Source of the DNA: Desulfobacteraceae bacterium
GTDB lineage: Bacteria; Desulfobacterota; Desulfobacteria; Desulfobacterales; JAABTS01
Assembly: GCA_011389735.1 (NCBI GenBank)
Contig: JAABTS010000060.1
Coordinates: 1 to 32,366, forward strand
Direction of reading: 5' to 3'
Length of the DNA stretch: 32,366 nucleotides
The notes under the pieces are model-generated. The model had not been told where the DNA came from and searched no databases. It was given only the letters and a program-made list of their open reading frames with translations. How positions within the stretch are numbered: the stretch's first letter is position 1; each line of letters begins with the position of its first letter. The position numbers and the translations under genes were made by a program. This document shows, one piece after another, positions 14,949 to 32,366 of the stretch.

Positions 14949-17828
14949 TTAAATCTTGAATCGCCGGACAATTTCATTAAGCTTTTTAGCCATTTCAGAC
15001 AATTCAATTGAAGATAAATTAGTTTTGGATGCTCCCTCAGATGTGTCTTTCGCAGCGGAAACAATGCCCCGGATGTTTTTCGATATTTCGTTGACGCCTC
15101 TGGCCGCTTCGTTCGAAGATTTGGCGACTTCGTTGACGCCGTTCCTCAGTTCATCCACATTTCTGGCGATCTCGGAGGCCGAGGTCGATGCTTCCTGTGT
15201 CGAATTGGCGATATCGTCAACCAGCCTGGATGAATCATCCGCTTTATTGGCGACATTCTGGATATTGGCGGACGCCTGAGCGACTGATTTGGAAATTTCC
15301 GCGGCCGTTGCATTTTGTTCTTCCACGGAAGACGCAATCATTGTATTGATATCAATGATATCGGCGATAACTTTGCTGATTTCCTCGACCGACAAAACCG
15401 CTTCATCGGTGGCGGTCTGGATTTTTTCGATTTGTCCGGCGATCTCGTCCGTGGCATCGGCCGACTGTTTCGCCAATTCTTTAACTTCGCCGGCGACAAC
15501 GGCGAATCCCTTGCCCGATTCACCCGCTCCAGCCGCCTCGATAGTCGCGTTTAAAGCCAGCATGTTGGTTTGATCTGCGATATCCTTGATAAGGCTCACA
15601 ACCTTTCCGATCTGCTTGGACGCCGATACCAGCACTGATATTTTCGCATTGACGTCTTCTGTTCGGTCGCCTGCTTTTTGAGAAATTCGACTGGCTTTAG
15701 ATGTATTGCGCGCCACCTCATTTAAAGATGATGTCATTTCTTCCAGGGCGGATGCTACTGTATTGATCTGGTCCGCCATGTCCCCGGCGCCTTGAGCCAT
15801 CTCGGAGACATTTTGAGACGCCTTTTTTGAAAAATCAGCGACATTTCTGAATGTAGACGACATCTCTTCGGTCATGGAAGCGATATTGTCCGTGGATGCG
15901 CCGGCCTGTTCGGATGCGGCGGCCACAGTGGAAACGCCCGCGCTCACCTGTTCGGACGCCGAGGCGGCGACATTCGCCTGCGCGTTCATTTCTTCCGCGG
16001 CTGAAGCCATCTGAGTGGAAACGGCGGACAGGTTATGCGATGATTTTTGAATCGGGCCTGACGCGTCGGCTATTTCAACGATAATCGCACGGAGTTTAGC
16101 AACAAAGGTATTGAACCATCCGGCCATGTCTCCGATTTCATCCTTTGATACGACATGAATGGTTTTTCTTAAGTCGCCTTCCCCTTCAGCCATATCGATT
16201 AATCCTTCGACCACCTGATTGACCGGTTTTACAATCCTTGAAGCCGAAAAATAGGAGATAATCAATGCGATTAAGATCGCCGAAGCTCCAAATAGATAAA
16301 TCAGAAATTGGGACGTGGATGCAATCCCTTCCGCCTTTTTTTGTCTTTCCGCCATCAAGGATTCTTCCCTTTCCTTGAAGGTTTTAAGCTGCCCCCGGAA
16401 TTTATCGAAAAACTGTTTGCCTTTGGCCTGGCCTACCACGTCGGCCATATTGTCCATGGTCTCGGAATGGCCTATTTCACGCCGAAGGTTGATTAACTCA
16501 GAGGCGACATTTTCTTTCCATTTCGTAAGAGTATTTTCCATTACAGCCAAAAGTTCAACCTGCTCGGGGTTGTCCGAAACGGTCGCTTTCAATTCCGAAA
16601 CAAGACTGAAAAATCTGTTTTCCCCCTCTTTTAAAGGGTGTAAAAAACTTTCTTTGCCCGCAAGCAGATATCCGCGCACGCCGGTTTCCATATCAACGGC
16701 GGCGCCCATAATCGACAACGCCGTCCGGATCACATGATGCGTATGATCCACCCATTTAATGGCTTCAACCATTTCCTTAAAATGCGTACGCATTTGATCC
16801 GAGGCTGTTTCCGAATCTTTCTTCCTCTCAACTATCAACTCTTTTTCAACATCGATGAAGCTGTTTATACTTGCACAAAAAGCATCGATTAAATGTTTTC
16901 CTTGCTTTTCGGATACAAAATCAGAGATATCCGAAAACGGCCTCACGCCGATAGATACATCTTTTCGAAGTTGAATCGCAGGATTCGCAATTTTCGCCCG
17001 CCATTCATTCATTACAGCTTCAGCATCCGCGAGCGCCTTGATCCGGGATGGATTGTTCAATATCATTTCCTTCAACTCCTTAATATTTTCGAACACTAAC
17101 TCATTCCCGGCGTGATAAGGCTCCAAAAAAACATCCTCTCCGGACAGGAGAAAACCGCGCAGGCCGGATTCCATATTTGCGGCGCGCCCCACGATTTGCT
17201 CCGCTTTGATCATAACCTGATAGGTATGGTTTACCCGGTATCCGGAGTCTTCCATGTTTTTTAGATTATTCGCCGTCCTGAATTGGACAGCTTCGAGATG
17301 CTGAATACGTTTTTCGATCAGTTCCTCTTCCCTGACAATGAACGTATTTATCTGAGTTCGGAGTTCATCGAACAACACCTTCCCCCGCGCCTCCTGAACG
17401 CTTTTCGCCATATCGTTCATGTTCGCCGCATCGCCGATTCGTTTTCGAAGTTCGATGTTAGGCGAGGCGGCCTTTTCCTTCCATTCATGGATCGTCGCCT
17501 TTATCTCTTCGAGCAGCTTCACCTGCGCCTTGTTGTCATTCACGGTTTTTTTCAATTCAGCGACCAAAGCATCGAATTCAGTTGCGCCATTCCAGTAAGG
17601 TTCCAGGAACTCTTCTTTTCCCGCCAGGAGATATCCTCGCATCCCTGTCTCCATGTTAACGGCGGATGCTTCTATTTTCATCGCCTCCTGTATCACCTTG
17701 TGAGTATGATCCACCCATTGGTTACTTTCCGTCAACGACGTTATTCCGTAAACGCCGACCATGACAAGGAGTAAAAGCAGTAAAAGAGCGGGAACCGACC
17801 CCAAAACAATTTTCTTTTTTAGTTTCAT
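14949..17828 (-). CDS. Methyl-accepting chemotaxis protein with three tandem CHASE3-like sensor units
   Basis: A 959-residue inner-membrane receptor. After the first membrane helix (8-29), the periplasmic region holds three repeats. Each starts near an [W/R]V[D/N]HTHxV block and contains [15 protein letters not shown] (near 58), [15 protein letters not shown] (near 218) and [15 protein letters not shown] (near 378), so the period is 160 residues; each is the CHASE3 signature. A second membrane helix (about 505-527), a HAMP linker and a long signalling coiled coil follow, with the hairpin tip [20 protein letters not shown] near 760-780. The usual Arg in this tip (IEAARAGE) is Gly. The C-terminus lacks an NWETF-type CheR/CheB docking peptide. 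It is oriented with the che genes, 497 bases downstream of cheR. Confidence 0.95.
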
Positions 17829-18325: not shown

Positions 18326-19201
18326 TCAAAAATTCAAGCATTTCCGGTATACCAGAGAATTTCCGATGCGCATTGATTCAAATTTGTCGGTCAGCATGTA
18401 AGTGCTTTCCATTGCGCCGAGAAATAGGTATCCGTCATCCGCCAGCAGGCGGTATAACGTTTCGAAGACTTTCCGTTTGGTGTGGTCGTCGAAGTAAATC
18501 AATATATTACGACAGAAAATGACATCGAATTTCAGCCCGAAAATTGAATACGGTTCGACGATATTCAATTGATGGAATTTAACCATGGTGCGGATCAAAT
18601 CAATGATTCGCCATCGATCGCCGCATTTTTCAAAATATGTGGTTTTTCTCCGGTCTGAAAGTCCCCTGCTGATTTCGCCGTTCGAGTATTTTCCGGCGAC
18701 GGCGGCGCCGAGGGCTTTTTTAGAAATATCCGTGGCCAGGATATTGAAATCCTCGCGTCTGACACCCGAATCCGGACGTGCTTTTACATATTCATCGATC
18801 AGGATTGCAATGCTGTATGGTTCCTGCCCCGTCGAAGCTCCGGCGCAAAGAATATTCGCTTTCATGGCCGCTCCGCAATTCGGGAAAGCCGTTTTTCGAT
18901 GTTCGATGAGCCGGGCGAGCTGATTTAGAATATGGTTTTCAAAGGCGTTAAACGGATGAACATCCCTGAAAAATGAAGTTTCATTGGTGGCGATGGACAA
19001 GATGATTTCATTGCGAAGGAGGACCGAATCGTCATGGGCCAATTTTTCGCCAAGCTCCGTAAAGTCTTTGCAACCGAAGGCCCGGGCCACCGGCTCCAAA
19101 CGCTGTCTGATCAGATAAGATTTGTCATTGGTGACGGATATCCCGGACACTTTATAAATGTAGGATCTTATGACGTCAAAATCTTTTGAAGAGAGATCCA
19201 C
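18326..19201 (-). CDS. cheR: Chemotaxis protein methyltransferase CheR
   Basis: A 291-residue cytoplasmic SAM-dependent enzyme that methylates glutamates on chemoreceptors. The N-terminal helical domain spans about 3-60 (FDVIRSYIYKVSGISV). The catalytic domain has NETSFFRD (73-80), the SAM motif LCAGASTGQEPYSIAI (118-132), the acidic ribose-binding strand LATDIS and FCRNILIYFD (229-238). I chose the GTG at 19201, ten bases after the cheB stop with AAAGGCGGG just upstream. Longer ATG-started versions run back into cheB and have no homology there. It is the last gene of the contiguous MCP-cheB-cheR set. Confidence 0.94.
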   Translation of the reverse strand: MDLSSKDFDVIRSYIYKVSGISVTNDKSYLIRQRLEPVARAFGCKDFTELGEKLAHDDSVLLRNEIILSIATNETSFFRDVHPFNAFENHILNQLARLIEHRKTAFPNCGAAMKANILCAGASTGQEPYSIAILIDEYVKARPDSGVRREDFNILATDISKKALGAAVAGKYSNGEISRGLSDRRKTTYFEKCGDRWRIIDLIRTMVKFHQLNIVEPYSIFGLKFDVIFCRNILIYFDDHTKRKVFETLYRLLADDGYLFLGAMESTYMLTDKFESMRIGNSLVYRKCLNF

Positions 19202-19211
19202 CGGCCCGCCT

Positions 19212-20273
19212 TTATTTGTTGACGATTTGAAACACAATATCGGGAATTTTTTCCAGAGGCAGGATACGGTCCACATGGCCGGCGGCCGCCGCGCTGCCCG
19301 GCATACCCCATACAACCGAGGTGGCTTCGTCCTGGGCGATTACACAGCCGCCCGCACGTTTCACGGCCCCGGCGCCCTGGGTTCCGTCAACCCCCATGCC
19401 GGTCAGGATCAAAGCAATGACATGCTTTCCGTAGATCGCCGCCGCAGATCGAAAGAGCACGTCCGCAGAGGGTCTTGTTCCGTTTTCCGGTGGTTGCCGG
19501 TTGAGGATCGTCAAAATTTCGCCGTCTTTTTTGCGAACCAGCAGATGTCTGTCCCCGGGCGCGATATATACGTGATTCCGTCGCACCGTCTCACCGTTTC
19601 GCGCCTCGAGTACCGTGTAAGCGCATTTATTGTTCAGGCTATCAGCCAGGGACCGGGTAAACGTCGGCGGCATATGCTGCACCACGAAAATCGGTATGGT
19701 CAAACGTTCACATAGAGCCGGCGTCAGTATGGACAATGCTTTCGGGCCTCCAGTGGAAACGCCGATAAACAAAGCCCTGGCCGCCGGAACGGCCCGCGGG
19801 GATTGGGGCGGGTCAAAAACCGGCGGCGACATCGAATGAGGGGAAAAACCGCGGCGGGATGCAAAATACCGGATTTTCACAAGCAGTCTCCGCCGCAGAA
19901 TTTCATGGCTTTCATTGAGGGATGCGGCCTCCGGTTTGGAGATAAAATCAAAAGCTCCTGATTCCAGAGCTTTGATCGTGGTGTCGGCTCCTTTTTGGGT
20001 ATGTGCGCTGACCATGATGACGCCGACGGGAGGGGCTCCGGGGTTGGAACTGTTGAACGCTTGAATTTCTTTCAATGTTTCCAGCCCGTCCATTTCCGGC
20101 ATTTCGACATCAAGCGTCACCAGATCAGGACGTTCCGACCGGATGAATTCCATAGCTTTCACGCCGTTCCGGACGGAACCGGCCACCTCGATATCTGTTT
20201 CCCCGGAAAGGCTTGATTCAACGGCCTTTCGGAAAATGAGGGAATCATCCACGATCAGGACTTTGATTTTCAT
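19212..20273 (-). CDS. cheB: Chemotaxis response regulator protein-glutamate methylesterase CheB
   Basis: A 353-residue cytoplasmic enzyme that demethylates or deamidates receptor glutamates when its receiver is phosphorylated by CheA. The receiver domain (1-120) has DD at 9-10, phospho-acceptor Asp55 in TLDVEMPEMDG and Lys113 in ISKPE. After a linker, the esterase domain shows nucleophile Ser173 in FIGVSTGGP, His200 in VVQHMPP and Asp296 in LTGMGVDGT, the full catalytic triad. The ATG at 20273 is 12 bases after the chemoreceptor stop, and cheR follows 10 bases on, so the three genes form one unit. Confidence 0.96.
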   Translation of the reverse strand: MKIKVLIVDDSLIFRKAVESSLSGETDIEVAGSVRNGVKAMEFIRSERPDLVTLDVEMPEMDGLETLKEIQAFNSSNPGAPPVGVIMVSAHTQKGADTTIKALESGAFDFISKPEAASLNESHEILRRRLLVKIRYFASRRGFSPHSMSPPVFDPPQSPRAVPAARALFIGVSTGGPKALSILTPALCERLTIPIFVVQHMPPTFTRSLADSLNNKCAYTVLEARNGETVRRNHVYIAPGDRHLLVRKKDGEILTILNRQPPENGTRPSADVLFRSAAAIYGKHVIALILTGMGVDGTQGAGAVKRAGGCVIAQDEATSVVWGMPGSAAAAGHVDRILPLEKIPDIVFQIVNK

Positions 20274-20285
20274 AGCGCCGCGATC

Positions 20286-22526
20286 CTAAACCTTGAATTT
20301 GCCGACCATATTGTGCAAAAGCGCGGCGACGCCGGTCAATTTTTCCGAAAGGGCGTTGATCCGGCGGGCTTCGGTGTTTGAATCGGCGGCGGCTTGACTG
20401 ACGCCCTGAATGTTCATGGACACGTCGTTCACGCCCCTGGCCGCTTCGCCCGCGTTTTTGGCCACGTCTTCCGTGCCCTTGGCGATTTCAGCGATGGCGG
20501 ACGCGATGTTGTTGACGCCTGTGTTGGCCTGCTGAACGTTTCCGGAAATTTCGTTAGCGGTGATGGTCTGCTGTTCAACGGATTTGGTGATGGTCATCGA
20601 TGAGTCGTTCAAATTGGTGATGATCGTGGAAATTTCGGAAATGGCCTGAACCGCGTTTTTGGTGTTGCCTTGAACGTCTTCGATCCGCTTGCCGATATCT
20701 TCGGCCGCCTCGGCGCTCTGCTTGGCCAGTTCCTTGATTTCATTGGCCACCACGGCGAATCCTTTTCCGGCGTCTCCGGCCGAAGCCGCTTCGATGGTCG
20801 CGTTGAGCGCCAGCAGGTTGGTCTGTTCGGCGATTCGCTTGATCACGGTGGTCACCTGGCCGATTTCTTCGGCCGCTCCCCCCAGGATATTCATGGTGCT
20901 CGAAGTCGAATCCGACATCTCCCTGGCCTTCTGAGCGACCTCGGAACCCTCCCGGGCCGTTTTTTCAACGCTCTTGACCGTAACCGACATCTCTTCAATG
21001 GACGACGCCACGGAATTCATGTTCATGGATAATTCCTCGGCGGTCGATGATACGTTATGCGCATTGGCGCTCATTTCTTCCGCCGCCGACGCCATGGCGT
21101 TGATGCCGGCGGACATCTGTTCGGTCGCCCCGGCCACATTGTTCGCCTGACTGCTCATTTCCTCCGAACCCGACGCCAGACGCACGGACAGTTCATTCAG
21201 ATCCGACGCCGCCGTATTCAAGGTCTCCATGTTTTCGGCGATATCCTTGAACATCTGCTGGTGGTTCTCGATAAACACATTGAACCATTTGGAAAGATCT
21301 CCGATTTCATCTTCGCTGTCGATATTCAGCCGGGCGGTCAAATCGCCTTCACCTTCTGCAATGTCTTTCAGCCGGTCTCTGGCCTGATTGATGGGGCGGA
21401 CGATAAATCCGGACACAATCCAGAAAATGAGCATGGCGATCGCCAGTATGCCTGTTCCGGTAAAAATCTGGTAGGCGATATTTTTTTGATTTATATTCGA
21501 CAGTTCACGAATCTGTTTTTCAACATGCTCAAAGACAGCATTCTTGGGAACCTTGATAATCACCGACCAGGGCGTCTCCGTCCATCCGAGCTGAAACGAC
21601 GTAAGCACTTCGGCGAATTCGTCCGAAATTTCAAGCTTATCCTCGCCTCTGCGCGCCCGGTCGAGATCCGCCTCCCATCCGTTGGGATTCAAATGCTTAT
21701 AATGTTTGCCGACTAAATCTGGTTTGTCGCTAACCGCCGCCAGTATCCCGTTATAGCTCATAATCGTGACACTTCCGGCTCCATTGTAGATGCTCTCGTT
21801 CGCCTCTTCCGCAAGAGTCTGGATAAAATCGACCCGCATGTCCACTCCGGCCATACCAAAAAAATCGTCGTCAACCACAATCGGGACAACCAGGGATGTA
21901 ATCCAGACGATGTTACCCTGAACAGGGTATGGATATGGATCGATGACGCATTCTTTTTTCCGTTCCTTTGGAAGCAGGTAATAATCTCCTTTTCTGACCC
22001 CGTTGTCATGAGTCGCCTTCGCTTCATAGTCTTCGAGCGGCGCAAGGTCGATGGAGCCTTCCACGTTTCTGCTCCAATAGGGAATAAATCTGCCCGTGCC
22101 GTCATGGCCCTCCGAATTCACATAAATTTCGTCAAGCCCGTCGAGGGCATTGGGTTCCCAGCATGTATAGGTTCCTAAAAATGTTTCATTTTTCACCAGA
22201 ACCGTTTTTAACACCCCGTTCATTCGTTTTCTATCCATTCTGAGGCTAACATCCGGGTTCTTAACGCCGCTGAAAACATCGGCCATGGTTCGAGCCGTAT
22301 CCAGAGCGACTTCCAGCGCGGCGTCAATCTCGAAAGAAACAGCCTGGGCGTTTTTCAAAATGATTTTTCCAGCCGATTCCGTAGCGGTTTCCCGCGACGA
22401 TTGTTCGATATAATCCCCGTTTCTTTTCGCGGATATCAGCCCGATTACGCAAAACGCCCCGATGGCCGTAATCATGCAAATGCTGACAATGAACATTAAT
22501 TTGGTGCGAAGCGAATTGAATCTCAT
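20286..22526 (-). CDS. Methyl-accepting chemotaxis protein with a double-Cache sensor
   Basis: A 746-residue inner-membrane receptor. The first membrane helix (9-31) is followed by a periplasmic region of about 320 residues with Cache features: [30 protein letters not shown], then [20 protein letters not shown], where the last block is the typical end of the distal Cache module. A second membrane helix (about 355-378), HAMP, and a signalling domain with the tip [20 protein letters not shown] near 590 follow. There is no C-terminal pentapeptide tether. The ATG at 22526 has AAGGGGG upstream. It sits immediately before cheB and cheR, and 555 repeat-filled bases after the solute-binding gene, which makes that protein a candidate ligand carrier. 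Ligand unknown. Confidence 0.95.
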
Positions 22527-23081: not shown

Positions 23082-24071
23082 CTATTGATCGCCCAATGCG
23101 TCAATGATAGCTTTATTATTGAAAATGGTATCGATTTCAAAATCCCTGGTCTGCATCTGATTGTTTTTCAGAAAAACTTTCAGATTCTTCAAATACTCGA
23201 ACACTCCACCATCCTTCATGTTTCTCTCGAATGACATGTCTTTGTCGTGGATCCGAACCGCATCGACCAATTCTCGCAAATCTTTTTCCGAAAAAGCCGG
23301 ATCATCAGGAAAGGTATGGTCGTTTAAAATCTTCATGTATTCTTTCCAATTGCCGGGCGCCTTAATCCATTCCGCCGCCTTGATCCATCCTTTCATGATC
23401 TTGACGATATCGTTATGGGGAATCGTTTTCAAGACATCGCTCATCACTATAAAACCTTCGGGCATAACGCCTTCATAAGTGGCGGACGTGGCGACGATTT
23501 TCCCGTTACCCAGCCTTTCAGCCCGCATTGCGGCCGGATTGTAATTCACGATAATCCCGAACCCTCCGTTGATAAACGTGTCGGTTAGAGTGTCGGATTC
23601 CATTTCGATAATTCTGGTGTCGGACAATTTCAATCCTATGGACGACAAATATTTTCCCAAAAAGTAGGTTACCGACGGCTTGTTGAAAAAAACGCCGATC
23701 GGCTGTTTTTTGAGCGTTGCGGGGTCGATATCTTTTTTGACGATAATCTTGTCGCCGCCGTGCGACCAGTCGGTTTCAGCGAGAATAACGACCGGCGTCC
23801 CGTCCATGTACATTCCAACGGCCGATCCAAGCATATCCAACGTTAAATCAACCAGCCCGTCTTTAAATAGTGTCATATTGTCAATGGAATTGGATGTTGT
23901 AATCACATTGACATCCACACCTTCATCCTTCCAAAAGCCTTTCACATCCGCTACATGGCACGGAGCCCACCCCGGCCAGGAAACCACGCTGATCTTATAG
24001 GTTTTTGCATATCCGATCCCCGTAAACATCAGTGAAATAACAACCAAACAAACAGCAATACGATTTTTCAT
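23082..24071 (-). CDS. Secreted NMT1/SsuA-type solute-binding protein without a transporter
   Basis: A 329-residue periplasmic binding protein. A Sec signal peptide (MKNRIAVCLVVISLMF, cleaved after about GYA at 22) precedes a mature domain typical of the NMT1/SsuA/ThiY group: YKISVVSWPGWAPCHVAD, GFWKDEGVDVNV, then LVDLTLDMLGSA and PVVILAETDWSHGGD. There is no lipobox Cys. Two ATGs (24074, 24071) follow AAGGAGGAG; I use the inner one, with six bases of spacing. No permease or ATPase lies nearby, while cheW and cheA precede it and an MCP, cheB and cheR follow, so a role in delivering ligand to a chemoreceptor is more likely than uptake. This is inference. The ligand (nitrogen, sulfonate or pyrimidine-like for this group) cannot be read. 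Confidence 0.87.
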   Translation of the reverse strand: MKNRIAVCLVVISLMFTGIGYAKTYKISVVSWPGWAPCHVADVKGFWKDEGVDVNVITTSNSIDNMTLFKDGLVDLTLDMLGSAVGMYMDGTPVVILAETDWSHGGDKIIVKKDIDPATLKKQPIGVFFNKPSVTYFLGKYLSSIGLKLSDTRIIEMESDTLTDTFINGGFGIIVNYNPAAMRAERLGNGKIVATSATYEGVMPEGFIVMSDVLKTIPHNDIVKIMKGWIKAAEWIKAPGNWKEYMKILNDHTFPDDPAFSEKDLRELVDAVRIHDKDMSFERNMKDGGVFEYLKNLKVFLKNNQMQTRDFEIDTIFNNKAIIDALGDQ

Positions 24072-24089
24072 CATTCTCCTCCTTTTTTA

Positions 24090-24213
24090 TAGTTAGTAGC
24101 TTAACAAAAACCTCCTCACGATCTCAGAGGATTTGCAATCCCCGTTGGCCATGAGAGGGACACGCGGGTTGCAAACCCGCTCAAAGCCTTGGTTTGCGGC
24201 TTTTCGTTCAAGC
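24090..24213. mobile_element. Diverged family A element between cheW and the solute-binding gene
   Basis: The left end GTAGCTTAACAAAAACCTCC starts at 24096, preceded by TAGTTA. The interior has GAGGATTTGCAATCCCCG and GCGGGTTGCAAACCCGC. The right end is CTTTTCGTTCA, after which the expected GCYRC and a matching TAGTTA are missing. The TCA at 24208-24210, the reverse-strand TGA stop of cheW, lies in this terminal repeat. The copy has diverged more than copies 1 and 2. Confidence 0.72.
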
Positions 24214-24690
24214 AATATCGAGATTCGCTAGCAAATGGTTCGGATTCAAAATCACCATTAGCGCTCCGTCCAGCTTGCATACTCCGGAACCTAGATCGGC
24301 TTTACGCCGATCCGCCGTTTCCGGAGGGTCTCCACGATCTTCCCTGCGGCGGTCTTCGATACGCCGTTCATCGACCTCCTCGACATCGCCGATGCAATCC
24401 ACCAGCACGCCTAAGTTTTCCCCCACCCTCTGTTTGAACAAAACGAGACGGCTGTTTGAATCTACGGGTTTCGGATCCAGCCCGATCATCAGCCGCAGAT
24501 CCAGAATTAAGTGAATCCGGCCTCGGATATTGACATATCCCTTCACCGCCCGGGGCGCATGGAATATGGGGGTGAATTGGGTTTCCCTATTGATTTCCTT
24601 GACATCCAGAATATCCACGCCGAAAAGGCGGTCTTCGATTTTAAAGGTGCATATCTGCCGTTTGCGATCTGATTCCGGGGTGTTTTTCAT
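24208..24690 (-). CDS. cheW: CheW-type coupling protein
   Basis: A 160-residue cytoplasmic adaptor that couples chemoreceptors to CheA. CheW features are QICTFKIEDRLFGVDILDVK (12-31), the receptor-facing GYVNIRGRIHLILDLR (51-66) and the closing LMVILNPNHLL. An unusual highly charged segment at about 107-132 (DERRIEDRRREDRGDP, TADRRKAD) sits where the second subdomain loop normally is. The ATG lies 4 bases after the cheA stop (TGA, ACCC, ATG), so the two are coupled. The TGA stop is supplied by the end of a family A element, so the last residues may not be ancestral. Confidence 0.93.
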   Translation of the reverse strand: MKNTPESDRKRQICTFKIEDRLFGVDILDVKEINRETQFTPIFHAPRAVKGYVNIRGRIHLILDLRLMIGLDPKPVDSNSRLVLFKQRVGENLGVLVDCIGDVEEVDERRIEDRRREDRGDPPETADRRKADLGSGVCKLDGALMVILNPNHLLANLDIA

Positions 24691-24694
24691 GGGT

Positions 24695-27600
24695 TCACCG
24701 TTTGCCGGGGTTTGCCGGTTTTCTTTTTTTGCGTAACAGATTTGAGATGACGGTCAACAATTCCTCCCTGTCGATCTTGATGACATAGGCGTCAAACCCC
24801 GCTTCCACGGCGGCCGATTTATCGGCTTCCGAATCCAGGGCCGTGAGCGCCACGGCCGGCGTATCCGCCCACTTCGATTCGCTGCGCGCCGCTTCCATGA
24901 ACCGCCATCCGTTCATGACCGGCATTTCAAGATCCGACACGATCAGGTCGAATTCGGCGTTATTCATGATATCGAGAGCTTGTTTACCGTTTTCGGCCGT
25001 GGTCACCTCATAATGGTCCGATTCCAGGTATCCGCTTACAAGCCGCCTGAAAAAGGATGCGTCTTCGACCAGCAGGATTTTTTTCATTATATCAGGAGGC
25101 GGGGCGAGTTTTCGTCGTTCGGAAAACCATTCCGGTTCCGCCAGCTCGATCAGACGAAAAACATCCAGGAACAAGGTGGTTTTGTTCCGGATAATCGCCG
25201 TCCCCATGAGTCCGTCGGCCATGTAGCTGTCGGTGTTGAGGCTTAGCGGCGCGTCGGCGATATCGATTATTGCGGATATGAGAACGCCGAAAGGCCGTTT
25301 CATGTGTTTGGGCAACAACAGGAACGGTTCCTCGACCGGTTCATAGCCCGACACGTTCATTACTTCGTCCATGACGAGGATCAGGGTGGTGACGCCGTCG
25401 ATGGTGATACAGGTTTTATCTCCTATTTTTTCGATCCGTGATGCCTGGATTCTTTCGATCCGGCGGATCAGGGGGAGCGTGACCGCGAATTGTTCCTGGG
25501 GCCCGCTCTTGAAAAGCAACACGGTTTGATGATCGTCCCGCCGGCCGGTCCGGTCTTCCTGCTGTTCCTGGAGCGTTCTGAACATGATTCCGGCGTGCCG
25601 GGCCACGCCTTCTATATCCAGGATCATCGCCACCCGACCGTCGCCCATAACCGTGGCGCCCGAATAAATCCCCAGGGATTTCATGGCCGAATGCATGGGT
25701 TTGACCACGATTTCTTCGGCGCCTTGCACCGAATCCACGATCAGCCCGTAACGCTGAAGGCCGAACTTGACGACCGCGAAATGCAGGGAGATTGAACCTT
25801 GATCCTGAAACTCGCCGGGAGACTTGTAATAAGAGTCGGTGATTTCCCGTTTTGTTTGTTTGGTGAACGGACGCGGGCGGTTCAATATTTCAGACAACCG
25901 CACCATGGGAAGCAGCCTGTCCCGAAGGCGAAACACTTCCTGGTCTTCGGCCTTTTCGATCCCGGCGTATGCGTCCTCATCGTACAAACATACCAGTTCG
26001 ACCAGATTGACCTGCGGTATCGCGTACTTATGTTCGCCGACCGTCACGATCAGGCAGGGAACTATGGCCAGAGTCAGGGGGAGTCTGAGATGAATTACGG
26101 TTTGCCGGCCGGGCGCCGAATCAATGTCCACGGAACCTCCCAGGGAATCCATGGCGGATTTCACCACGTCCATACCCACGCCGCGCCCCGATACGGCGTT
26201 GACGGATTCGACGGTGGAAAAACCGGGCAGAAACACCAGGGACAGAATATCCTTGTGATCCATGGCCGACAATTCTTCATGGGTTTTCAGCCCCCGTTCC
26301 ACAGCGGCCTGTTTGACCGCCGACGGATCGATTCCCCCGCCGTCGTCCCGGATTCGAATGTTGATCTGTCCCGCTTCGTGATAGGCCTCCACGGCGACAG
26401 AACCGGTTTCCGGTTTTCCCGCCGCATTCCGGATTTGCGGCTCTTCGATCCCGTGGCCGCAACAATTACGAATCAAATGAATCAAAGGGTCCGTCAGCGT
26501 TTCCAGGATGGTTCTGTCCAGTTCCACATCGCTTCCCGATATGGTGATTTCAATAGGTTTGTTCAGCTTTCCGGAAAGATCGCGCACGATTCGCGGGAGT
26601 TTGGCGAAAATGTTTCCGAGCGGCTGCATCCGCGTGCGCATGATAGTTTCCTGAAGCTCAGTGGTGACGATATCCAGACGCTGGGAAACTCCCCTTGAGG
26701 CCGAAGAAGCGTTTTCAGCGATGGTCATTTGCTGGTTGCGCACCAGCACCAGCTCTCCGGCCAGTTCCATCAGCCGGTCCAGGATATCGACCTTTACACG
26801 GACGGTTTCGCCGTGTTCCGAATGATCCGGATGAGTCGCCGGATCTCTATTGATTTTGCCGGCGGCGCCGGCTTCCGGACATGGATCCGAGGGTTTTTTA
26901 TCCAAAAGGTCGCCGGGGCTCCGGCTTTCCGGAACCGGCGCGAATGACGATTTCTCGATCCTGGTGATCCGGTCCCCTTTCAGCCCGGACTGGGACTCTA
27001 TATCTTCCGGCTTGACGTTCGACGCATAAAGGATCAGATAAATCAAAGGAACCGAAGCCGGATCATCTTTCAAGCCGGCGGCGCCGGTTTCGATCCGTGT
27101 TTCCACGACGGCGCCGCGCCTGAGCAAGTTCCGGACCAGAGACACAGGCGTGGTTCCGCTTTTACTTTGATATTCGTGGAGATCGTATTTGAGCAGGTAT
27201 AAATAATCATAGTTCGGGAGGGTCTGGTTCAAGGTGAACTCGTTGACATGAAGCGTGTCGCCGTCCGAATTGGAAACGGCGATCCGGGTCTCCATCTGTT
27301 TCTTTGACCGGGGCGATGATTTCCCTTCGATAATGTCCGCCAGGCGGGTGTGAATGTGGCTGGTGTCGACATCTTCGACGCTTTCCGGATCGTCTAACAG
27401 TCCTTTCAATGTGTCCACTCCCGACAGAAGAACGTCGATATAGCTGTATTCCGGGGAAATATCTCCGGCGCGCATCATTTGAAGCACGGTTTCCATGACA
27501 TGAGCGAGACCGTTGATTTTTCCATACCCCATGAATCCGGATGCGCCCTTGATCGAATGAATCGACCGAAACACCTCCGCAATCAATTCGAGCCGCTTTT

Positions 27601-27715
27601 CGTTCGGACTTTTTTCCAGTTCAAGGAGCCTGGATTCGACTTTGTCGAGATGTTCTCCTGTTTCTACCAGAAACTCGTCAAGCAGTTCGTTGTGCAGTTC
27701 CGGGTTCAATCCCAT
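24695..27715 (-). CDS. cheA: Hybrid chemotaxis histidine kinase CheA with two CheW-like domains and a receiver
   Basis: A 1006-residue cytoplasmic kinase. P1/Hpt (about 1-105) carries phospho-acceptor His53 in IHSIKGASGF. Residues about 150-270 form a P2-like region. Dimerisation helices start near 305 (LDRLMELAGELVLVRN). In the ATPase domain the N-box is HLIRNCCGHGIE near 412 (Gly where many CheA proteins have Asp in NxxDHG), followed by DDGGGID, PGFSTVE and GRGVGMDVV near 510. The first CheW-like domain is about 545-690, the second about 705-850, and a C-terminal receiver is about 880-1000 with Asp near 928 (VSDLEMPVMNG) and Lys in YVIKID. The start codon shares a base with the preceding stop (TAATG). 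The receiver may act as a phosphate sink in the absence of CheY. Confidence 0.95.
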   Translation of the reverse strand: MGLNPELHNELLDEFLVETGEHLDKVESRLLELEKSPNEKRLELIAEVFRSIHSIKGASGFMGYGKINGLAHVMETVLQMMRAGDISPEYSYIDVLLSGVDTLKGLLDDPESVEDVDTSHIHTRLADIIEGKSSPRSKKQMETRIAVSNSDGDTLHVNEFTLNQTLPNYDYLYLLKYDLHEYQSKSGTTPVSLVRNLLRRGAVVETRIETGAAGLKDDPASVPLIYLILYASNVKPEDIESQSGLKGDRITRIEKSSFAPVPESRSPGDLLDKKPSDPCPEAGAAGKINRDPATHPDHSEHGETVRVKVDILDRLMELAGELVLVRNQQMTIAENASSASRGVSQRLDIVTTELQETIMRTRMQPLGNIFAKLPRIVRDLSGKLNKPIEITISGSDVELDRTILETLTDPLIHLIRNCCGHGIEEPQIRNAAGKPETGSVAVEAYHEAGQINIRIRDDGGGIDPSAVKQAAVERGLKTHEELSAMDHKDILSLVFLPGFSTVESVNAVSGRGVGMDVVKSAMDSLGGSVDIDSAPGRQTVIHLRLPLTLAIVPCLIVTVGEHKYAIPQVNLVELVCLYDEDAYAGIEKAEDQEVFRLRDRLLPMVRLSEILNRPRPFTKQTKREITDSYYKSPGEFQDQGSISLHFAVVKFGLQRYGLIVDSVQGAEEIVVKPMHSAMKSLGIYSGATVMGDGRVAMILDIEGVARHAGIMFRTLQEQQEDRTGRRDDHQTVLLFKSGPQEQFAVTLPLIRRIERIQASRIEKIGDKTCITIDGVTTLILVMDEVMNVSGYEPVEEPFLLLPKHMKRPFGVLISAIIDIADAPLSLNTDSYMADGLMGTAIIRNKTTLFLDVFRLIELAEPEWFSERRKLAPPPDIMKKILLVEDASFFRRLVSGYLESDHYEVTTAENGKQALDIMNNAEFDLIVSDLEMPVMNGWRFMEAARSESKWADTPAVALTALDSEADKSAAVEAGFDAYVIKIDREELLTVISNLLRKKRKPANPGKR

Positions 27716-29934
27716 TACATGTCTCCTTTGCAGGTCGGCCGTATGGAATAGATTCGATCCAGACGGGTCATTCGAAAAAAATGATTCAAATCTTCGCCCG
27801 CATTGATGATTTCTAGTTCGGAGGGTTCGCCGGCGAGGGTTTTATCCAGAATCAGGAACGTGCTTAGCCCCACGGAATCGATGTCCTGCACCTTTTCAAA
27901 GTCGAAACGAAATTTAACGCACCCCTCCTCCACAAGTTCCTTCAGCAACGTTCGGAATTTATCCGCCACCGACGCCGTGATATCTCCGCTGGGCCGAATA
28001 TTTTTCCACTCATTTTCTTCAGTGACTTGAAACTGCGTTTCCTGATGAATTTTCACATAGGCGGTCACTTTGTTTCCTTTGTCGTTGAATTCGATTTTTT
28101 TGCTGAACGCATTGATGATGGCATACCCTCGATTTCTGACCTGCCTGGAATTTTTGGGAATCGACATATCCAGCGAGTTGTAGTCGAAACCGCCGCCCTG
28201 GTCGGAAACTTCGATTTTGAACAAATCGCCGGGTAAAATTGAAATCGTGCAGCCTGCAGCTTGATCGGGTTGATTCCGGTTACCGTGTTCCACGGCGTTG
28301 ATCAATAATTCGCGCAGCACCAGTTTGAATTCGGAAAACGTTTCAAAACCGTGTTTTTTTAGGAAACGGCGTGATTCAGCAACCACTCGATCCACCAGAT
28401 GCATTTGCGAAGAGAGGGTAAAAGCGATGGATGCGCCGTTTTCGACTATTTCGAACGTTTGAGGCCGGATATCGATGGATTCACGTTCCATCCGGCGATT
28501 GATCATCGATGCCACGATCGATGCTGAATCACGCATCAACGACGGCCGCCGCCCTTTTCCGCCTGCTCCGATGACAGCGTCGGCGAACCGTAAGTCGACG
28601 AATCGTTCCAGATCGACCGGTTTCCCCAGGCCCATCGGCGATTTCATGTATCGCTGAATCCTGTCCAAATCTTCGATCACGGGAAACATGTCATCCGTCT
28701 TCAACCCTTTCGGATCTTTCAACACGGTTTCAATCAGGGAAAGGTTCAACCCAAACCGTTTTTCCGGGTCGAGAAAATCAACGGCGATCCGGGCCGCGGA
28801 TTCAGGTTCCCGGGCGATAAAAAGGCCCGCTTTGACCAGCATTTCCACAAACTCATGAGCCGCATCTTCATAATCTTCGATAAACCGCTTTTGCATGAGC
28901 AGGACGCAGCAAGGATGGTTTTCCCATAATTCGCCCGACAGGAACATCAGGCTTCCGGCCCCTTCCCGAATCGCTTTCGTCCCCATGGGTTCGGCCACGA
29001 TGAAACCGCATGAATCCGGATTGTTCGACAAAAATTCAGGCATTAGAACCGGCGGCACGACTTCATAAAACACGTCGATGTCCGGTTTTCCCACAGGGCC
29101 CAATTTCAACCCGATCTCCCGTAAAAACATGTCCGCCAGCATATGATGAATCGACAAAATATGCGGCAGGAAAAAGGTTTTCCCCTTGAGAAAATCGTGC
29201 AGGGCTTCCTGATTCGTGCTATCGGCGCTTCTGACGCAAATGCTTCCGTTTTTATGCGCAAACAAGACCAATCGAACAGGAACGTCGGCGCTGAACAGAT
29301 CCATCCCCATCGGAGCGAGTATAAAGGCTGCATCGGCCTCGCCCGATTCCAGGGCGTCCTGAACCGGATTCCAGTTGGGCATGCTCAGGGTTTCCAGTTC
29401 GAAATAACGGGGCGTCCAGGTTCCGTTATCGATAAAATGGCTTAAAACTCCCAATGCAAGGTGGTCGGTGATTTGAATATGGGCCGCTTTGATTCGCTTT
29501 TTCACAGGAGAGCGCTTTGTATGAACGGACCGGCTGTCGGCGCCGTCCGCTGAATGACGCCGGAACGCTTTATCAATGGCGGCCTTGAGTTCTTCGGCGC
29601 CGAAAGGTTTTGTGATAAAGGCGGAAACTCCCGCCAGCTTAGCCTTTTCGGCCTGGCTTCGTTCCCCCTGAGCCGTGGCGATAATAAACGGGACGTTTTT
29701 ATAGGCGTCGTCGGATCGAACAGCCTCCAGAAGTTTGTATCCATCCAGGCCCGGCATGTTCCAGTCGCTGATGATCAAATCGATGTCCGTCCGTTTGCCG
29801 AGTATTTTCAAAGCCGATTCTCCGTCCCCGGCTTCGACGACGGTTGCGTATCCCAGATGTTGAAGCACCTGAATTTCGGCTTTCCGGGTAAATTCGAAAT
29901 CTTCGACCAGCAAAACAGTGACCTGATCATTCAT
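27715..29934 (-). CDS. REC / NrtA-like ligand-binding / RsbW-like kinase / STAS four-domain fusion
   Basis: A 739-residue soluble protein with no signal peptide or membrane helix. Residues 1-125 are a receiver: ED at 11-12, Asp57 in ISDWNMPGLDG, Thr87 and Lys109 in FITKPFG. Residues about 147-400 resemble a nitrate/bicarbonate-type binding protein (AAHIQITDHLALGV, ESGEADAAFILAPMG at 196-210), here cytoplasmic, as in the regulatory domain of NrtC. Residues about 500-635 are an anti-sigma-type HATPase: ELLINAVEHGN near 545, DQGGGFD and RGYAIINAF. Residues about 640-735 are STAS with IDSVGLSTF, Ser687 being the likely phospho-site. The stop shares a base with the cheA start, and the start overlaps the phosphatase gene by 4 nt. 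A kinase fused to its usual substrate is unusual. Confidence 0.88.
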   Translation of the reverse strand: MNDQVTVLLVEDFEFTRKAEIQVLQHLGYATVVEAGDGESALKILGKRTDIDLIISDWNMPGLDGYKLLEAVRSDDAYKNVPFIIATAQGERSQAEKAKLAGVSAFITKPFGAEELKAAIDKAFRRHSADGADSRSVHTKRSPVKKRIKAAHIQITDHLALGVLSHFIDNGTWTPRYFELETLSMPNWNPVQDALESGEADAAFILAPMGMDLFSADVPVRLVLFAHKNGSICVRSADSTNQEALHDFLKGKTFFLPHILSIHHMLADMFLREIGLKLGPVGKPDIDVFYEVVPPVLMPEFLSNNPDSCGFIVAEPMGTKAIREGAGSLMFLSGELWENHPCCVLLMQKRFIEDYEDAAHEFVEMLVKAGLFIAREPESAARIAVDFLDPEKRFGLNLSLIETVLKDPKGLKTDDMFPVIEDLDRIQRYMKSPMGLGKPVDLERFVDLRFADAVIGAGGKGRRPSLMRDSASIVASMINRRMERESIDIRPQTFEIVENGASIAFTLSSQMHLVDRVVAESRRFLKKHGFETFSEFKLVLRELLINAVEHGNRNQPDQAAGCTISILPGDLFKIEVSDQGGGFDYNSLDMSIPKNSRQVRNRGYAIINAFSKKIEFNDKGNKVTAYVKIHQETQFQVTEENEWKNIRPSGDITASVADKFRTLLKELVEEGCVKFRFDFEKVQDIDSVGLSTFLILDKTLAGEPSELEIINAGEDLNHFFRMTRLDRIYSIRPTCKGDM

Positions 29935-31193
29935 CTTTTTTTACCTTCCCCCGATACGCCGGGCGGCCGCTTGCCGGGAATTTCAATCCCTGCAAGCAGC
30001 ATGTCGTCGTTCGGTTTGGCGTCGCAAAAGGCCAGAACATCACTCCACGCCCGCGACACCATCTCCGCCAGAGGCAGGCTGCGGTGCGAGGCCAGGATTC
30101 GTTCAAGACCGTGATCCGATAAAAGTTTCATTCTCTCGTCCGACGTATCCAGCCGTGAAACGCCGGTCACGCCGTCCGTATACAAAAACAAGCGATCACC
30201 CGGATCCAATTCGAATTTAAGCGATTCAAATTCAACCTGGTCGTATATTCCCAGCACCATGCCGTTTGTAGACAGGCTCCGGCGCTCCCCGTCCGGCCCC
30301 CCGGAAAAGTGGATCAGAGGAGGATGTCCAGCAGTTACGATATCCCCGGTCATGGCCTTCAAATCGATACGAAGAAACAGCGCCGTAATCATCCGCTCGT
30401 TCTTTTCGCTTTCCCGAAGATGCCTGTTCAAAAGATAAAATAAGGTCGGTCCGTCATTGGCCTTTCTGGCGTTTTCTTCGAAAAAGGCTTTGATCAAAAT
30501 GGTGTGAAACGATGATCCCAGGTCATGCCCCGCCACATCGGCGACCAAAATGTCATAGCCGTCCCGTCCGCTCTCGATGCCGATGAAATCGCCCCCCAAA
30601 TCCGCAAGAGGCCGGTTTTCCCAGGCGAACGGAATATCGTAATCCTCCGGTGAAACTTCAACCAGCTTGTGGTAAATATCCACGGCGGATTCAAATTGCT
30701 CACTCAGCCGTTCAAGATTCAACTTGTATGTCCGGATATCTCGCGCCGAAACGGTCTCATTATTTCCAAACCCTACGCCGCCATTCGATTTACCGGCGTT
30801 TTCCCTTTCAATATCATGAAATACGGTTTCGATACATTCAAGAAGCTCCTCGCCGGAAAACGGCTTTTCAATATAATCCCTACAACCGCTTTTCAGCAAC
30901 CGCACCACGGTCTCCTTGTTGCCGAAACCAGTCATGGCCACAACCGGTATGGAAACATCCGTCTTCTTCAGAAGACCCGCCAAATCAAGTCCGCTGATTC
31001 CGGGCATCTTGATATCGGTCAGTAGAAGATCCGGACGATTTTCCGTTCCATAACTTTCCTTTATCGTTTCAAACGCTTCAGCGCCGTCCTCCACCGTTGT
31101 AACCGTATAACCGGCCCCTTTCAATATCAGGGCCAGAGACAATTGAGTCCGCTTTTCATCTTCAGCTATCAAAATATGCTTTTTTGCGCTCAT
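29931..31193 (-). CDS. Receiver-PP2C (RsbU/SpoIIE-type) phosphatase response regulator
   Basis: A 420-residue cytoplasmic protein, first gene of the signalling operon. The receiver (1-125) has ED at 11-12, Asp60 in LLTDIKMPGISG, Thr88 and Lys110 in YIEKPF. A helical linker (150-180) leads to a PP2C domain with metal ligands Asp198 (LADLGGDF), Asp219 and Asp224 (VADVAGHD), then AGHPP, LYTDGVTG and Asp396/397 (KPNDDMLLAGIEI). Such phosphatases dephosphorylate a phospho-STAS protein, and the STAS domain of the next gene is the obvious substrate. It overlaps that gene by 4 nt (ATGA). The ATG at 31193 has CAGGGGG upstream. Response-regulator control by CheA is inferred from operon context. Confidence 0.94.
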   Translation of the reverse strand: MSAKKHILIAEDEKRTQLSLALILKGAGYTVTTVEDGAEAFETIKESYGTENRPDLLLTDIKMPGISGLDLAGLLKKTDVSIPVVAMTGFGNKETVVRLLKSGCRDYIEKPFSGEELLECIETVFHDIERENAGKSNGGVGFGNNETVSARDIRTYKLNLERLSEQFESAVDIYHKLVEVSPEDYDIPFAWENRPLADLGGDFIGIESGRDGYDILVADVAGHDLGSSFHTILIKAFFEENARKANDGPTLFYLLNRHLRESEKNERMITALFLRIDLKAMTGDIVTAGHPPLIHFSGGPDGERRSLSTNGMVLGIYDQVEFESLKFELDPGDRLFLYTDGVTGVSRLDTSDERMKLLSDHGLERILASHRSLPLAEMVSRAWSDVLAFCDAKPNDDMLLAGIEIPGKRPPGVSGEGKKR

Positions 31194-31280: not shown

Positions 31281-31472
31281 CACCCATTCGGGCTTGATTA
31301 TAATTTCGGTCATAATTTCTCGGGTTGCTCCGGAGCCCCAAAGCCGGAGACTGCGCTTCGTAAGTCGCGGGTTACAAACCCGCTCAGAGCAAGAGACCCG
31401 CTCAGAGGGGGTTTGCAACCCCCGGCTTACCCTGGCGCTCTGGCCGATCTTAGAATCAAGCCCCACCCATTC
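31281..31472. mobile_element. 174-bp element, family B (copy 2) with 9-bp target duplication
   Basis: The element is 31290-31463. Its ends GGGCTTGATTATAATTTCGG and CGATCTTAGAATCAAGCCC are imperfect inverted repeats. It is flanked by the exact direct repeat CACCCATTC (31281-31289 and 31464-31472). Inside are GCGGGTTACAAACCCGC and GGGGGTTTGCAACCCCC. No protein is encoded. It lies about 90 bases upstream of the signalling operon, so it may carry or interrupt the promoter region. Confidence 0.82.
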
Positions 31473-31944: not shown

Positions 31945-32077
31945 TAATTCGTGGCTGAACGAAAACCTCCTCGCGCTCCAAGGGGATTTGCAATCCCCGT
32001 TTGCCGCGAGAGGGTAGACGCGGGTTGCAAACCCGCTTAGAGCCGTATTTTGAGACTTCTCGTTCAGCTACTAATTC
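31945..32077. mobile_element. 121-bp MITE-like element, family A (copy 2) with 6-bp target duplication
   Basis: The element is 31951-32071, 121 bp, from GTGGCTGAACG to CGTTCAGCTAC, flanked by the direct repeat TAATTC (31945-31950 and 32072-32077). The internal hairpins are the same as in copy 1, and the two copies are nearly identical from CGCGCTCCAAGGGG to CTTCTCGTTCAGC. The conservation suggests recent activity. It is inserted about 115 bases upstream of a transposase gene. Confidence 0.85.
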
Positions 32078-32192: not shown

Positions 32193-32366
32193 ATGAACGA
32201 GGTAAAAGTAGAATTCACGGAAAAAAATCTGACGGGGAATGCTGGGCTTGTTCACTATGGCAAGTTCATCAAAAAGCTCGGCTTGGCGCAGGTTATAGAT
32301 GAGAAAGTGAGCATTAGTCGAGGCGATAACGCTGAATACACTATTTCGGGCGTTATCATTATGATG
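32193..32366 (+). CDS. Transposase N-terminus, IS1380-like (cut by window end)
   Basis: The first 58 codons of a gene that runs off the window. It starts MNEVKVEFTEKNLTGNAGL and continues VHYGKFIKKLGLAQVIDEKV, the layout I associate with the N-terminus of IS1380-type DDE transposases (a short beta stretch, LTxxAGL, then a FxxxLGL helix). The DDE residues are outside the window. The ATG at 32193 has AAAGGAGG ten bases upstream. A T-rich hairpin (TAGATTT...AAATCTA, 32129-32148) precedes it. Too little sequence is present to exclude another DDE family. Confidence 0.6.
   Translation, partial: MNEVKVEFTEKNLTGNAGLVHYGKFIKKLGLAQVIDEKVSISRGDNAEYTISGVIIMM

Follow-up and report, generated by a model that had tools for sequence, protein, structure and literature searches.

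A chemosensory operon of Desulfobacteraceae encodes a serine kinase fused to a STAS domain, a receiver and a predicted cytoplasmic binding domain

In classical partner-switching systems, the serine kinase and its STAS partner are separate proteins (PMC5085249, PMC10120452). The 32,366-nucleotide contig of a Desulfobacteraceae bacterium, from a group of sulfate-reducing type, analysed here as a whole (JAABTS010000060.1; hereafter, the window) encodes both in a single chain of 739 amino acids, together with a receiver (REC) and a domain related to transporter binding proteins. This raises the question of whether a partner switch can operate with the kinase and its substrate joined, and what signals it would receive.

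The 739-residue protein and its operon

A preliminary description of this DNA, made from the sequence, had given the correct coordinates of the gene, which lies on the minus strand (Table 1). The four domains that it assigned were all found by Pfam above the curated cut-offs (Response_reg, 3.7e-24; NMT1_2, 8.2e-23; HATPase_c_2, 4.4e-13 at residues 523-625; STAS, 5.7e-10). The profile searches that it proposed as a check matched the middle region to NMT1_2 and to NrtA, NrtC and CmpC, and the later region to HATPase_c_2 and SpoIIAB/RsbW. The receiver residues D12, D57, T87 and K109 are invariant in 16 REC-NMT1 proteins, as in response regulators. The kinase domain belongs to the RsbW/SpoIIAB family: it has the HATPase_c_2 fold, the N-box Glu and Asn and the DxGxG motif, and lacks HisKA. 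The last domain has the STAS fold with the acceptor Ser directly after Asp (D686-S687), as in the RsbV/SpoIIAA antagonists. Residues D57, E542, N546, D578 and S687 are intact in the protein and invariant or nearly so among its relatives. Thus, the kinase and STAS domain do lie in cis, as first described, with catalytic and acceptor residues preserved in one chain. No signal peptide or transmembrane segment is evident in the 739-residue protein; therefore, its binding domain should be cytoplasmic.

Table 1. Features of the protein and its operon (window positions)
Feature	Position	Strand	Details
REC-NMT1_2-HATPase_c_2-STAS protein	27715..29934	-	739 aa
REC domain	29575..29916	-	residues 7-120; phosphoacceptor D57; Pfam Response_reg 3.7e-24
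NMT1_2/NrtA-type binding domain with C-terminal extension	28582..29502	-	residues 145-451; Pfam match 146-384
SpoIIAB/RsbW-type serine kinase domain	28039..28455	-	residues ~494-632; E542, N546, D578, G580, G582, G603
STAS domain	27733..28017	-	residues 640-734; presumed acceptor S687
REC-PP2C (SpoIIE) phosphatase, presumed opposing enzyme	29931..31193	-	Pfam SpoIIE 5.6e-35, Response_reg 1.9e-25
CheA (Hpt, dimerisation, HATPase, CheW x2, REC), presumed phosphodonor	24695..27715	-	Hpt His53
CheW	24208..24690	-
NMT1 (PF09084) solute-binding protein	23082..24074	-	signal-peptide-like N-terminus
MCP chemoreceptor	20286..22526	-	weak PDC-type sensor match
CheB	19212..20273	-
CheR	18326..19315	-	true start probably downstream of listed TTG

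The full-length AlphaFold model, built from 3 sequences, had a pLDDT of 53, and most of the binding domain was below 50. A 250-residue model of the HATPase-STAS module was usable (75.5). In structure comparison this module matched RsbV/SpoIIAA and, separately, SpoIIAB, and a profile search of the PDB likewise retrieved SpoIIAB/RsbW and STAS antagonists. None of the best structural matches was a solved chain spanning both halves.

Among the relatives, N546, H550 and G551 are unchanged, and residues of the DxGxG motif are altered only twice (L125 and L124). The catalytic Glu is kept in all domains but two (E>Q in L120, E>A in L124). In both of these loci a second HATPase retains the Glu, as a requirement for kinase activity would predict. 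Only L125 lacks the STAS Ser, with Ala in its place and Lys in place of the HATPase Asp, and the D686-S687 pair is retained in nearly all fused STAS domains. Such a pattern is expected if phosphorylation of the attached STAS domain matters and can cross subunits. An extra HATPase was seen in the operons of L120 (7905-8342), L108 (1432-1848), L122, L123 and L124.

On the minus strand the genes run in the order REC-PP2C, REC-NMT1-HATPase-STAS, CheA-REC, CheW, periplasmic-type solute-binding protein (SBP), MCP, CheB and CheR. This is a chemosensory operon, with CheA, CheW, MCP, CheB and CheR plus a receiver output. The stop codon of the REC-PP2C gene overlaps the start of the 739-residue gene (ATGA), and the stop of the latter overlaps the cheA start (TAATG). 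The REC-PP2C protein carries its metal motifs (GGDF/GHD/TDG/NDD) and presumably counteracts the kinase, supplying the other arm of a partner switch. This run of genes includes no recognised stand-alone gene for CheY or STAS. The internal NMT1_2 domain is not a copy of the operon's SBP, to which it has no significant similarity. A periplasmic-type NMT1 SBP precedes the MCP gene in only three mapped operons (the window, L113:4384-5403 and L114:12628-13647), where it may feed the chemoreceptor.

Other features of the window were noted. A second MCP of 959 residues (14949-17828, minus strand), inspected by eye, seems to have, in its N-terminal half, three copies of a helical segment sharing a 19-residue motif and resembling repeated CHASE3-type sensors. 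Upstream of the operon, a 28-nucleotide repeat, AGTCGCGGGTTACAAACCCGCTCAGAGC, occurs in intergenic direct and inverted copies at 31363-31427 and 32016-32043. An open reading frame at 32193-32366 (plus strand), which runs off the end of the window, resembles by eye the start of a transposase.

Relatives of the fusion and of its modules

It turned out that the same four domains are present in Desulfobacterales bacterium HSG16 (L028) and Desulfobacteraceae S08.Bin136 (L029). The exact order occurs in five other genomes, counting these as two (they appear to be G210 and G145 of the genome search), and in a paralogue on another contig (C104) of the window's own genome. Other four-domain copies are found in G247, G105 and G022, with a second one in G210; in a variant from G280 an extra N-terminal HATPase stands ahead of the four domains. 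The recurrence of the architecture at ~46-69% identity excludes chance or chimeric assembly. The order had been thought to belong to no named system. This agrees with the open-access papers searched, in which we found no description of a kinase-STAS fusion in a che operon, of REC-NMT1 or of the four-domain order; the genome search showed that it is not confined to this genome.

The HATPase-STAS core was detected in 21 of the 291 genomes of the class (17 of 123 genera), mostly as proteins of ~250 residues, and in one further genus only in the phylum sample. Domain databases may contain such fusions from other phyla. In the sample, HATPase-STAS by itself outnumbers the four-domain form, and the REC-NMT1 part, present in only some members, was probably added to the core.

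We mapped 28 loci and counted their neighbours by hand, some of the contigs being short. A REC-PP2C gene lies directly upstream in 25 loci, a CheA gene downstream in 25, and both are present in 22. Three loci have no recognised REC-PP2C and two no recognised CheA. In many of the mapped loci CheW, MCP, CheB and CheR come next, and no stand-alone STAS or CheY gene was recognised inside the 28 operons. Kinase, STAS and PP2C genes thus stand together, as in partner switches. The conservation of this trio indicates that kinase and STAS, fused together, work as a functional unit within a chemosensory partner switch. The gene order also supports CheA as the likely phosphodonor. The preliminary description had proposed that the protein integrates CheA input with an internal metabolite; the likely role of CheA stands, and what was missing is the overlapping, opposing REC-PP2C gene upstream. 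Since the operon encodes this phosphatase as well, the input is likely two-armed.

Judged by the partners to which it is joined, the REC-NMT1 half is a portable module. It is fused to CheW (L003, L010, L011, L013, L014 and L017), to CheA (L110) and to PP2C (L140, L141 and, weakly, L012), and stands in tandem with CheW in L005 and L158; other proteins end after NMT1. In a tree of 42 REC-NMT1 blocks, the kinase-STAS forms group apart from most CheW-fused and stand-alone forms, with two label changes. The grouping is slightly better than this count, because L166, which carries the label 'alone', is the C104 paralogue in truncated form, and a single origin of the kinase-STAS forms is compatible with the tree. 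We tentatively suggest, at somewhat less than even odds, that REC-NMT1 proteins form a class of soluble, phospho-gated sensors not described before, which derive from the type of binding protein used by an ABC importer. They would report how much of an imported solute is present inside the cell to whichever output is fused to them (CheW, CheA, PP2C or kinase-STAS), and here would drive an intramolecular partner switch without a free STAS protein.

The binding domain and its link to an ABC transporter

A profile of 16 relatives of the binding domain matched S. aureus 3un6 (3.5e-24), NrtA (5e-10) and the cytoplasmic domains of NrtC and CmpC (~1e-9). Both this and the NMT1_2 homology place the domain in the NrtA/CmpA type, and the residues of its pocket motifs do not vary among 16 diverse proteins. 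In NrtA, we take W102, H196, P222 and K269 to be the residues that bind nitrate. In the alignment, W188, H263 and P295 fall at or beside the first three, and an invariant Cys343 occupies the position of Lys269. Therefore, nitrate, one of the candidate ligands named in the preliminary description, is judged unlikely, and the transporter described below suggests another solute. The precedent of NrtC itself has held: the middle domain is homologous to the cytoplasmic NrtC/CmpC domain in the profile search, and the regulatory domain of NrtC has a putative nitrate site and is a proposed internal nitrate sensor (PMC6603209).

The nearest exported homologues found were Tat-signal SBPs of an NrtABC/TauABC-like transporter, which share HPCC and other pocket motifs with the cytoplasmic module. 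REC-NMT1 or a cytoplasmic stand-alone form is present in 78 of the 291 genomes, including all 60 that carry the Tat-exported SBP. The Fisher p value of this co-occurrence, 2e-46, ignores phylogeny and is inflated by kinship; outside family f35 the association still holds in 18 of 18 genomes from 12 families. The genes for the exported SBP and the cytoplasmic module lie within 6 kb of each other in 44 of the 60 genomes, 39 of these linked cases being from one family. Two gene orders occur: REC-NMT1-CheW before the transporter (families f23 and f7) and REC-NMT1 after it (f35). In the window's genome, this transporter is on another contig (C424; L130). Co-occurrence and proximity suggest that the ligand of the cytoplasmic module is the substrate of the transporter. 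The link is genetic and is most simply explained if the cytoplasmic domain senses the solute that the transporter carries.

REC-NMT1-CheW genes adjoin ABC genes in L152, L153, L154, L157 and L134, and ABC genes are followed by REC-NMT1 in L135, L155, L156, L159 and L160. In this last group (f35), a conserved gene of ~180-280 codons follows REC-NMT1 (L135:10231-11076, L155:5791-6333, L156, L159 and L160); its L135 copy had no Pfam match. Stand-alone NMT1_2 proteins beside REC-NMT1 or ABC genes (L136:6432-7367, L137:5752-6687 and L135:4281-5219) have no evident signal peptide and are possible cytoplasmic solute-binding proteins.

A possible mechanism and known systems

The domains, catalytic residues, operon, conservation and transporter linkage are seen in the sequences themselves. 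From these we predict that CheA is a phosphodonor, that Ser687 becomes phosphorylated, that a ligand is bound and gates the kinase, and that the STAS domain has a target. In this reading (probability about 0.6), the serine kinase would be fed by CheA, gated by a solute and directed at the STAS domain attached to it. We infer that the attached HATPase phosphorylates Ser687, in cis or across a dimer, and that the REC-PP2C encoded upstream would strip the phosphate. CheA, driven by the MCP of the operon, would phosphorylate both receivers and so set the balance of kinase and phosphatase. As a second input, added in this lineage, the cytoplasmic NMT1_2 domain would bind a solute, most likely the substrate of the Tat-dependent NrtABC/TauABC-type transporter, and gate the kinase. 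The output would be the binding of a target by phospho- or dephospho-STAS.

The kinase might instead act in trans on a separate STAS protein, the attached STAS serving for docking or as a pseudo-substrate and keeping the kinase occupied until it is released, in an intramolecular partner switch. The separate partners of the classical systems (PMC5085249, PMC10120452) speak for this. So do the two loci in which the STAS-linked HATPase has lost the Glu but a further HATPase retains it, so that trans action probably does occur in relatives. However, almost every fused STAS domain retains the acceptor Ser and the Asp before it, which is unexpected for a mere adaptor, and the mapped operons have no recognised separate STAS gene; we consider this explanation unlikely. 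To the same degree we doubt that the receiver attached to the kinase obtains its phosphate from some other histidine kinase, with the CheA of the operon serving REC-PP2C only. A stand-alone HATPase-STAS without REC does occupy the same operon elsewhere, so CheA signalling to REC-PP2C alone suffices there, but the overlapping genes, and the addition of a REC to the gene at this place in the operon, suggest one donor for both receivers.

Less probable still is that NMT1_2 has lost ligand binding and persists as an inherited spacer, structural or for dimerisation, that separates REC from the outputs. One REC-NMT1 block does carry CheW, CheA, PP2C or kinase-STAS outputs, as a spacer could; yet the pocket-motif residues invariant in the 16 proteins are common to exported SBPs, and the genes are linked to a matching ABC transporter. 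If the CheA-fed, solute-gated reading is right, a partner switch can run even when one polypeptide holds both kinase and substrate, and a transporter-type binding protein has been recruited to gate chemosensory signalling from the cytoplasm. Linkage to the transporter gives an unbiased route to the ligand. With kinase and STAS fused, two point mutants would allow a direct test of whether serine-kinase switching works in cis or in trans.

In partner switches kinase and STAS are separate, and here they are fused; despite this the 739-residue protein probably works like a partner switch. The kinase and STAS domains of SpoIIAB/SpoIIAA and RsbW/RsbV of Bacillus have the same catalytic and acceptor residues. 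However, kinase and STAS are there distinct proteins, which exchange partners with a sigma factor, and no receiver is present. In HptB-HsbR-HsbA of Pseudomonas aeruginosa, as here, a receiver-controlled PP2C and an RsbW-type kinase set STAS phosphorylation below a histidine phosphorelay, but HsbR unites kinase and phosphatase and leaves the STAS protein HsbA free (PMC5085249), whereas here the kinase and STAS are joined and the phosphatase is separate. In addition, phosphate here probably comes from a chemosensory CheA, and the protein has a binding domain as well. SypE of Vibrio fischeri also combines REC with serine kinase and PP2C activities that govern a STAS protein, SypA; it differs in its order (kinase-REC-PP2C), in the separate STAS, in having no binding domain and in not being described in a che operon (PMC10120452). 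SiaABCD of P. aeruginosa shares a PP2C, an RsbW-type kinase, a SpoIIAA-like protein and a non-sigma target, but all its proteins are separate and no chemosensory operon is involved (PMC9239204). NrtC and CmpC likewise carry a cytoplasmic NrtA/CmpA-type domain fused to another protein; there the partner is an ABC ATPase rather than signalling domains, and the position of NrtA K269 is Cys in our protein. A weak structural match of the modelled module, over 158 columns only, was to LvrC of Leptospira (PDB 9qih), titled a response regulator.
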